8,134 bases of DNA from Bacillota bacterium (lineage in GTDB: Bacteria > Bacillota > Bacilli > Bacillales_B > DSM-18226). The translations under genes and the position numbers were made by a program. Position 1 is the stretch's first letter; each line of letters begins with the position of its first letter. This document shows, in pieces, positions 3,857-5,896 of this stretch. The notes below the pieces were generated by a model. It was not told the DNA's origin. It did no database searches and saw only the letters and a list, made by a program, of their open reading frames with translations. The stretch lies in assembly GCA_030705665.1 (NCBI GenBank), contig JAUZQA010000169.1, forward strand, positions 1 to 8,134. The letters are read 5' to 3'.

Positions 3857-5248
3857 TTAAAATTCGGCGTTTCCGGTTGTCCTTGGGAAAGGAATAACGT
3901 CCCTAATATTACTCATTCCTGTTAAATACATGATTAATCGTTCGAAGCCTAGGCCATAGCCAGCATGTTTAGTGCCACCATACTTTCTTAATTCGAGGTA
4001 CCACCAGTAATCTTCTTCACTCATACCAAGCTCAGATATTTTATTGGCCAAAACTTCTTCCCGCTCTTCACGCTGACTGCCGCCAATTAATTCACCAATA
4101 CCTGGTACAAGCATATCTGTTGCTGCAACGGTTTTTTGATCATCATTTAATCTCATATAAAACGCCTTAATTTCTTTTGGATAATCTGTTACAAACACAG
4201 GTTTCTGGAAAATTTGCTCACATAAATACCGTTCATGCTCTGTTTGCAAATCTATGCCCCACTCAACAGGATAGCTAAATTCTGCTCCTGAGTTTTTCAA
4301 AAGCTCAATAGCCTCAGTATATGTTACACGTCCAAAATCCGCTGATTTTACGATGTTTAATCGCTCCAACAGGCCCTTGTCAACAAAGCTGTTAAAAAAC
4401 GCCATTTCTTCAGGAGCTTGTTCAAGCACATAGCTAATCACGTATTTTACCATTTCCTCACCAAGATCCATGATGTCGGGAAGCTCTGCAAAAGCGATTT
4501 CTGGTTCAATCATCCAAAATTCAGCAGCGTGTCTGGCTGTATTTGAATTTTCAGCTCTAAAGGTTGGTCCAAAAGTATAAACATTGCGGAATGCCAAGGC
4601 AAATGCTTCAGCAGTTAATTGCCCGCTTACAGTTAAATTCGTTTCTTTATTAAAGAAATCCTGTTTTGCGTCAACTTTTCCTTCTTCATTTTTAGGAAGG
4701 TTATCTAAATCTAAAGCAGTAACCCTAAACATTTCCCCGGCACCTTCCGTGTCACTGCCGGTAATAATGGGTGTATGTACATAAACGAAACCTTTTTCTT
4801 GGAAAAACTTATGAACTGCGTATGAAGCAAGCGAACGAACGCGAAAAACGGCAGAGAAAGTGTTTGTTCTTGGACGCAAATGAGCAATTGTCCGTAAATA
4901 TTCAAAAGTATGTCTTTTCTTTTGCAATGGATAATCAGTGTTTGAAATTCCTTCAATTTCAATTTCAGTTGCTTTTATTTCAAAAGGCTGTTTTGCCTGT
5001 GGTGTTAAAATAAAATTTCCAACTACTTTGATTGAAGAGCTGATCGGAAGTTTGGCAATTTCCTTAAAATTGACCATTTGATCATCAAAAACAATTTGTA
5101 CTCCTTTAAAAAAGCTCCCATCGTTTAGTTCAATAAACCCAAATGTTTTTGAATCACGAACTGTACGGACCCATCCCGACAATTGAACCTGTTGGTCTTT
5201 GAAGTTCTCAGAGTTTCGGTATAAATCCTTTATTAGGGTATCTTTCAT
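3857..5248 (-). CDS. asnS: Asparaginyl-tRNA synthetase (AsnRS)
   Basis: This cytoplasmic class IIb synthetase joins asparagine to tRNA-Asn using ATP. It is 463 residues long, close to the 466 of the E. coli enzyme and like the B. cereus form; B. subtilis AsnS is shorter, about 430. The N-terminal OB-fold anticodon-binding domain is about 18-105 ([21 protein letters not shown]). The catalytic domain has motif 1 around [16 protein letters not shown] (148-163), motif 2 TFRAEN...[12 protein letters not shown] (229-250) and motif 3 YGLGFERL (431-438), ending IRDVIPFPR. An extended frame runs back to 5368 through the leader and its terminator and is not used. AGGAGG (5263-5258) lies 6 bases before ATG 5251 and 9 bases before ATG 5248. 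The second was chosen because it aligns with homologues; the first would add one Met. It is a single-gene unit with its own promoter, leader and terminator. Confidence 0.95.
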
Positions 5249-5251
5249 CAT

Positions 5252-5446
5252 ATAGTTCCTCCTATTTATTTCTATAGAACAGGAAAAAACCTCCCATCTA
5301 ATCGACGAAAGGTAAAATTTAACGGTACTGTCCATCTTGTTCAGATCTAACAAGAATGGATATCTCACCGGCCTAAATTGGCTGGTTCGTCCTGCCTGTA
5401 AATGAATTCTTTGCTATTACTGGCACTCCCGCTTAACTTTTATCCT
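5252..5446 (-). promoter_or_regulatory. Structured asnS leader RNA, attenuator of unknown class
   Basis: About 195 nt separate the predicted transcription start from the asnS start. On the minus strand three helices can form. P1 pairs GGATA (5445-5441) with TATCC (5362-5358). P2 pairs TGCC-A-GTAA (5425-5417) with TTAC-A-GGCA (5401-5393). P3 pairs CCAGCC (5385-5380) with GGCCGG (5373-5368), with one mismatch. A strong hairpin follows, TCCAT-T-CTTGTT with AACAAG-ATGGA (5360-5331), then an intrinsic terminator (5313-5284). GATGGA on the 3' arm of the hairpin can instead pair with TTTCGTC in the terminator 5' arm, so an antiterminator is possible. The segment GTACCG followed by TTTCGTC resembles the end of a T-box leader, but the UGGNACC bulge is not present and no normal Stem I was found. 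Asparagine, uncharged tRNA-Asn or another signal are all possible. The pairings are by eye. Confidence 0.55.
5284..5313 (-). terminator. Leader terminator ahead of asnS
   Basis: Minus-strand RNA pairs ACCTTTCGTC (5313-5304) with GATGGGAGGT (5298-5289) over 10 bp, three of them G-U, with loop GATTA and a following T run (complement of A 5284-5289). It lies before the asnS ribosome binding site and after the promoter, so it would block asnS unless prevented from forming. The weak G-U pairs suit a switchable hairpin. Confidence 0.75.
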
Positions 5447-5451
5447 CCATC

Positions 5452-5481
5452 ATTATATAAAAAATTACAGGTAATAATCAA
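5452..5481 (-). promoter_or_regulatory. asnS promoter
   Basis: On the minus strand the -35 is TTGATT (5481-5476), the spacer is 18 bp, and the -10 is TATAAT (5457-5452), a perfect vegetative (SigA-type) box. Transcription should begin near 5446-5445, at the 5' strand of leader helix P1. Confidence 0.7.
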
Positions 5482-5665
5482 TACACTTATAGTTTTGCGA
5501 CAATTCAAATGAAAACAAAAAAGTGTTAATTTTTTTAGCATCAGAAAAATTGTAGAAAAATGTTTGTTTTTTTTCATCAAGAAAAATTTTTTCAGAAAAT
5601 TCGCAGGAATTTTACTTCTTACGACGAAACTATTTAGTAAAATCACTAGTGGAGGTATTTTTCTT

Positions 5666-5896
5666 ATGGACAAAGTAACATGTATTGCATTTATCCTTTA
5701 TCAATCTGCAAACACACGAGAGAAAAAAGAACTTGCGGTCCAGTTGTTAAATGGTGATATTTCGCTTCGTGATTTAAAAAAAATCCATTCCCTTCTTCCT
5801 GACCTTACATCGGCAGAAGTTTTGTTTAAAAAAAGAGCCGTTGATATAAATTTGGTCCAAGAATTTGCCGCAAAATTCCTTTTTATTGAAGCTTAA
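5666..5896 (+). CDS. Small protein of unknown function, 76 residues
   Basis: I do not recognise this gene. The start is ATG 5666, with GGAGG (5651-5655) ten bases upstream; the frame is open further back, to 5564, but through A+T-rich non-coding sequence. The product is a short, probably mostly helical soluble protein beginning MDKVTCIAFILYQ. It has charged patches (TREKKE, LRDLKK, KKRA) and a hydrophobic, aromatic C-terminus, AAKFLFIEA. It has no obvious signal peptide, zinc motif or known active-site motif. It is divergent from asnS and convergent with the acetyltransferase gene, with only eight bases between the stops and no hairpin there. A weak possible -10, TAAAAT (5638-5643), precedes it. 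The ribosome binding site and a composition like its neighbours argue that it is real. Confidence 0.65.
   Translation: MDKVTCIAFILYQSANTREKKELAVQLLNGDISLRDLKKIHSLLPDLTSAEVLFKKRAVDINLVQEFAAKFLFIEA

Follow-up and report, generated by a model that had tools for sequence, protein, structure and literature searches.

What kind of RNA precedes asnS in this bacterium, and can it still control the gene? The window (the whole stretch of DNA analysed, 8134 bases) carries asnS, encoding an asparagine--tRNA ligase of 464 aa, on its minus strand (3857..5251). From its letters alone, the leader of this gene had been taken for an attenuating RNA other than a standard T box, and three identities had been offered for it: a decayed T box, a divergent tRNA-sensing leader or an unrelated ligand-binding RNA. 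No report on this asnS leader was found in the open-licence full-text literature. Passages of PMC2494555 report that asnS is under T-box control in a few Firmicutes only, and that the box of one transporter family seems to have degenerated; an excerpt of PMC2916919 indicates that asnS depletion is used in B. subtilis.

Organization of the asnS leader

All features of the leader are on the minus strand. Their order is: promoter, RNA of about 130 nt, 10-bp terminator with a T run, ribosome binding site, asnS. The SigA-type promoter of the original prediction is present upstream of asnS (TTGATT-18-TATAAT, 10/12; -35 element, 5476..5481; -10 element, 5452..5457). Within the clade of 66 genes defined below, 65 share this -10 hexamer, as the search pattern required. 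The predicted 5′ end of the transcript, GGAUAAAAG (5437..5445; +1 placed at 5445 from the -10 spacing), corresponds to the GGGAU with which the short leaders described below begin. The intrinsic terminator, ACCUUUCGUC-GAUUA-GAUGGGAGGU (5289..5313), carries the arm CCUUUCGUC found in sister T boxes; its 10-bp hairpin and the TTTTTT that follows (5283..5288) are as had been described. The ribosome binding site AGGAGG (5258..5263) was located by eye.

The window leader has a predicted folding energy of -55.8 kcal/mol, against a dinucleotide-shuffle mean of -40.3 (sd 4.1; z -3.76; 0/200 shuffles as good). The fold is closed by AAAGUUaAGCGG (5429..5440) and CCGUUaAAUUUU (5314..5325), a helix absent from the original prediction; the 3′ strand overlaps the CC of CAGUACC (5324..5330). 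It can be compared in G069 and G068, whose AsnS proteins are the nearest to that of the window among the 193 family genomes (97% and 94% identity). The 11 pairs of this closing helix (5440-5429 with 5325-5314) are all standard in the window and G069; one A-A is found in G068, where 10/11 stand. The stable hairpin UCCAUUCUUGUU...GAACAAGAUGGA (5331..5360) exists as claimed. Its position is that of T-box stem III plus the antiterminator 5′ strand, and 2 of its 11 pairs are lost in G068.

The other helices that had been proposed fared less well. P1 (GGATA/TATCC) lies outside the predicted fold of the window; by eye, its counterpart is GGATA/TGTCC in G069, and G068 lacks it at the aligned place. 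P2 belongs to the predicted folds of the window and G069, not to that of G068. A possible small hairpin, GGCaGG-ACGAA-CCaGCC (5380..5396), is an alternative to P2 and excludes it. It can form in all three leaders and is a member of the best fold in G068 only, where one pair is altered on both sides (C-G to U-A) and another change affects one side. The pairing of GATGGA with TTTCGTC can form, less well in G068 (by eye). On P1 and the nested switch, the original prediction was right only in part. The closing helix is kept in all three leaders and the inner helices differ in G068; the terminator columns of the three-sequence alignment are out of register for G068.

Two other features of the window were recorded. 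A lysine riboswitch (RF00168, 71.6 bits, plus strand, 1-157), cut at the window edge, precedes an amino acid permease gene; the listed ORF start (78) falls inside the riboswitch, so the true start of the permease is probably further on. A small ORF (5564-5896, plus strand, 110 aa as listed), divergent from asnS, has no Pfam or NCBIfam match; by eye, several related loci seem to have a similar stretch ahead of asnS.

Comparison with known RNA families

At the gathering score, Rfam has nothing in the window leader. With the cutoff relaxed to E<=10, the only matches are to a snoRNA family and a lncRNA family, and neither a T box nor a riboswitch appears; a known riboswitch was thus rejected as its identity. 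The G068 leader has no RF00230 match at E<=10 either. The T-box bulge UGGN pairs with the tRNA NCCA end and is described, in passages of PMC7583486, as invariably placed in known T boxes. As the original prediction had noticed, CAGUACC stands in the window where UGGNACC is expected; UAGUACC stands there in G069 and G068. The window leader is hence not a standard T box, as had been claimed. By eye, and with no Rfam match, no stem I with a specifier codon was seen in it; this stem has presumably been lost. Outgroup T-box leaders contain GAAGAACACC with AAC, which we take to be the stem I motif and the specifier. The arm CCC, partner of the A1/A2 antiterminator, reads CGA in the window and G069 and CCC in G068 (by eye only).

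The leader resembles the T box of the asparagine type (RF00230) in these points: same gene and position, an intrinsic terminator before the gene with the arm CCUUUCGUC, a relic AGUACCG and a hairpin at the place of stem III. The window leader differs from it by the absence of an Rfam match, of a recognizable stem I and specifier, of UGGN (CAGU instead) and of the antiterminator partner CCC in the arm.

Other candidates were rejected. Leader peptide with Asn codons: the ATGs of the short leaders appear unconserved (by eye). Widespread aptamer: a search of the 193 family genomes with the leader DNA gave only G069 and G068, the latter over 36 bases. In a plasmid collection, 29 records have similar asnS DNA, all at 60-80% identity, which is uninformative for the leader.

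Distribution of T boxes ahead of asnS

Relatives of asnS were taken from named genomes (at least 80 loci kept) and from the 193 family genomes. The closest named relatives among the matches listed belong to Neobacillus and Mesobacillus; the protein matches listed also include other AsnS sequences, with identities of up to 93%. In an Rfam scan of 18 loci, a T box (RF00230) was found ahead of asnS in Mesobacillus selenatarsenatis (L002, 111.5 bits), Clostridium hydrogeniformans (L003, 131.7 bits) and a clostridial MAG (L004, 115.4 bits). It lies behind asnS in L028, and the remaining scanned loci have no T-box match at the gathering score. The window type of asnS is common to Clostridia (75% identity in L003). 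An Rfam T box also precedes asnS in the family genomes G166 and G002, according to match positions compared with asnS positions.

asnS was found at E<=1e-150 in 91 of the 193 family genomes; upstream DNA was taken for these and for the window (92 genes). The other 102 genomes have no asnS match at this threshold, and the family may hold two asnS lineages. Genes with TGGNACC at <=140 nt from the asnS start were called T-box genes. By motif, 25 genes have TGGNACC, 65 lack it and have TATAAT then GG(G)A(T/A), and 2 belong to neither group. A quick tree built from the 92 coding sequences has a branch (support 99) that separates the 65 genes and G140 from the rest, which includes every T-box gene. 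TGGNACC is thus found in none of the 66 genes of the window's clade, and the terminator is kept in 65 of them. The exception is G140, from which terminator and GGGAU are both gone and where asnS remains. Canonical asparagine T boxes with the same terminator arm at their end precede orthologous asnS genes just outside the clade. A single loss of TGGNACC at the base of the clade would be the simplest account. Judging from its named members, the clade probably corresponds to Neobacillus and near kin. T boxes as such were not lost from it: at least 18-26 T-box matches were found in each of seven genomes checked, five of which belong to the clade, and these may not include every weak match near asnS in the clade genomes.

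The 65 leaders were chosen by the pattern TATAAT then GG(G/A)A(T/A) or GGA(T/A), which in part dictates the invariance of TATAAT and of the start letters; of the 67 genes that lack TGGNACC, all but G140 and G180 passed. The terminators of the window and G069 were missed by the clade terminator pattern and were read from a separate terminator call and the sequence. G180 (L154, L213) is an outgroup without TGGNACC that keeps its terminator (CCTTTTGTCCC...GGGATGGAGG), a possible second and separate loss.

Relic T-box sequence in the leaders

A profile was built from 22 of the 25 T-box leaders (G089, divergent, and G078 and G086, near-copies, were left out). The arm CTTTCGTCCC is invariant across the 22 aligned T boxes. 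The last leader bases before the terminator, terminator excluded, were scored against this profile, with 300 shuffles each. Shuffles as good as the leader number 0 for G072, 1 for G068, 1 for G137, 2 for G069 and 10 for the window. Among the 65 leaders, nine have at most 3 and 14 have at most 15 shuffles as good; the relic has faded in most of them, since for 51 of them roughly one shuffle in 20, or more, is as good. It can be read directly: AATTTAGTTGTTACTACGAAATTTACC in G072, GTTGGATAGTACCGTAGAATTTTACC in G068 and GATGGACAGTACCGTTAAATTTTACC in the window versus AATTTGGGTGGTACCGCGGAAATTAAACC in the T box of G163.

With a covariance model of the T-box 3′ half, the top match within the window is the asnS leader (15.6 bits, E 0.01); the scores are 24.7 bits in G068 and 16.3 bits in G069. 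The short leaders L001 (19.2 bits) and L099 (19.1 bits), where only the terminator is concerned, score as highly, so this score measures chiefly the terminator end. That the window retains T-box stem II is no more than a possibility: when the inner domain, with the small hairpin at 5380..5396, was aligned to a stem II profile, 30 of 250 shuffles were as good for the window (17 for G069, 3 for G068), a likeness without significance for the window alone, and an HMM of the T-box inner domain has no match in the window. The short leaders have too little room for stem I.

Taken with the canonical T boxes of sister genes and the shared terminator arm, this relic makes descent of the leader from a canonical asparagine T box well supported at the level of sequence comparison. 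Of the three identities first offered, the decayed T box is the one that gains; no support was found for a divergent tRNA sensor or an unrelated ligand-binding RNA.

The transcript 5′ end as predicted antiterminator

In 62 of the 65 leaders (G143 included), only about 36-60 nt separate the start from the end of the terminator arm. The first five bases, 6 bases past the -10 box, are GGGAU in 61 of these short leaders and GGAAU in one (G126); positions +6 to +14 drift. They are complementary to the end of the terminator 5′ arm, mostly (G/A)UCCC: 305 of 310 positions pair over the 62 leaders, and the five unpaired ones belong to arms with UUCCC. Sliding the register from -6 to +4 leaves 81 to 236 of 310 pairs. 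When the nascent RNA is folded to the arm end, bases 1-4 pair with the arm with a mean of 0.95 (lowest 0.25), against 0.31 in shuffled leaders. G126 has the sole A at +3 and the sole U at the partner position (GGAAU:GUUCC), that is, one compensatory change. Covariation rests on this one gene, because swaps of arms and 5′ ends between species cost almost nothing (539 of 5000 permutations as good, not significant). By eye, no GGGAU was seen at the equivalent place in the outgroup leaders G163 and G166.

The start pattern TATAATNNNNNAGGGATA has a single match, at asnS, in 7 of 10 genomes (reversed control: 3 matches in the 10); the unmatched G069, G068 and G126 have different starts. The start-plus-terminator pattern matches asnS alone, again in 7 of 10 genomes (control: 0). 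That the transcript's own 5′ end forms a new antiterminator is a good prediction, with little covariation. Upstream in the 62 genomes with short leaders, TTTGTTGAATATTGCTTAT (about -46 to -27) is conserved over more than a plain -35 box and could be a regulator site.

The window, G069 and G068 have a longer form of leader, which starts with GGAUAAAAGUUnAGCGGGA and has 130-140 nt before the terminator. Its 5′-end segment GAUAAAAG is complementary to the terminator 5′ arm CUUUCGUC, a weaker version of the GGGAU pairing. Enforcing this helix costs 1.9 (window), 2.4 (G069) or 0.3 (G068) kcal/mol relative to the best nascent fold, with one non-standard position in G068; the inner part of the closing helix then stays. 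The first two Gs have another partner in the best nascent fold: the CC of the terminator base. AAAG can thus pair with UUUU (terminator free) or with CUUU (terminator blocked). Competition between GAUAAAAG:CUUUCGUC and the closing helix is predicted from these three sequences.

Proposed mechanism and alternatives

The leader is probably an attenuator that descends from a T box, has ceased to read tRNA and uses the transcript's 5′ end as its antiterminator; we hold this reading somewhat more firmly than its alternatives together. tRNA reading would have been lost in the ancestor of the clade, UGGN having gone and stem I with its specifier having become unrecognizable. The terminator is kept; therefore, the RNA can still attenuate transcription, yet should not read tRNA-Asn. 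The first transcript nucleotides would pair with the terminator 5′ arm and so replace the tRNA-stabilized antiterminator; most short leaders would do this by GGGAU and (G/A)UCCC, the window by GAUAAAAG and CUUUCGUC. In the long form, the same 5′ strand would have a second partner just upstream (AAAGUU with AAUUUU). As the second partner leaves the terminator free, the 5′ strand could shift from an ON register to an OFF register and back. This account supposes that transcription starts at the G run and that read-through into asnS really varies under some signal. The median energies are -6.9 kcal/mol for the nascent fold and -16.4 for the terminator hairpin; the antiterminator, being far weaker, cannot win at equilibrium and needs kinetics or help. 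Most likely, folding during transcription makes the leader a partly leaky attenuator.

The weakness of this antiterminator and the minimal covariation also fit a pure relic: a dead T box in which a leaky constitutive terminator sets basal asnS expression, GGGAU being a promoter feature (GTP initiation) complementary to the arm by chance or descent. G140, which keeps asnS with neither element, can also be read in this way. Such a relic is rather unlikely. The retention of the terminator in 65 of 66 genes, the first five bases, nearly fixed where the middle of the leader varies freely, nascent pairing well above that of shuffles and the joint change of both partners in G126 speak against it.

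Less probable still is control of the pyrG kind (CTP synthetase, reiterative transcription), in which the polymerase would slip on the GGG start, extra Gs would strengthen the pairing with the pyrimidine-rich arm and nucleotide pools would set asnS read-through. The pyrG leaders of eight genomes share the plan of the short leaders (TTTGGGCTCC and an arm with CTCCC in 8/8, by eye), which most relatives of the window have: a start at a G run and a CCC run in the arm that can pair with the 5′ end. The gene is different, asnS leaders start with GGGAU and pyrG leaders with GGGCU, the window has an extra structured domain, and slippage is only conjectured here. Only two Gs begin the predicted transcripts of the window, G069, G068 and G126, which disfavours slippage as a general rule, and G126 restores pairing, not the G run. 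To our knowledge, asnS has no link with a nucleotide pool. According to passages of PMC4448216, attenuation of pyrG in B. subtilis is prevented when Gs are added at its start.

That the 130-nt domain of the window, G069 and G068 is a ligand-binding aptamer, or binds tRNA in a new way, is very improbable: the three folds are stable (z -3.8, -4.0 and -3.3; the folded stretch ends at the start codon for the window and at the T run for G069 and G068) and a closing helix competing with an antiterminator is riboswitch-like, but the domain is represented by three sequences only, matches by leader DNA in just the 2 of 193 family genomes cited above, has no Rfam match and, unlike an aptamer core, has inner helices that differ between window/G069 and G068.

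Implications

The T-box-derived attenuator with a 5′-end antiterminator can be extended, speculatively and with much less confidence than the reading itself, to a single conversion: at the base of the clade, the T box may have become a minimal attenuator in which initiation events (start-site choice, G slippage, GTP/ATP balance) replace tRNA charging as the control of asnS.

These leaders offer a traceable case in which an RNA switch lost its sensor and kept its actuator, with intact outgroups, the long form of the window and its two relatives, and many short forms. If the 5′-end antiterminator works, one regulatory RNA logic would have been rebuilt into another by deletion and a few point changes, and an aminoacyl-tRNA synthetase would join the genes whose attenuation may depend on initiation.
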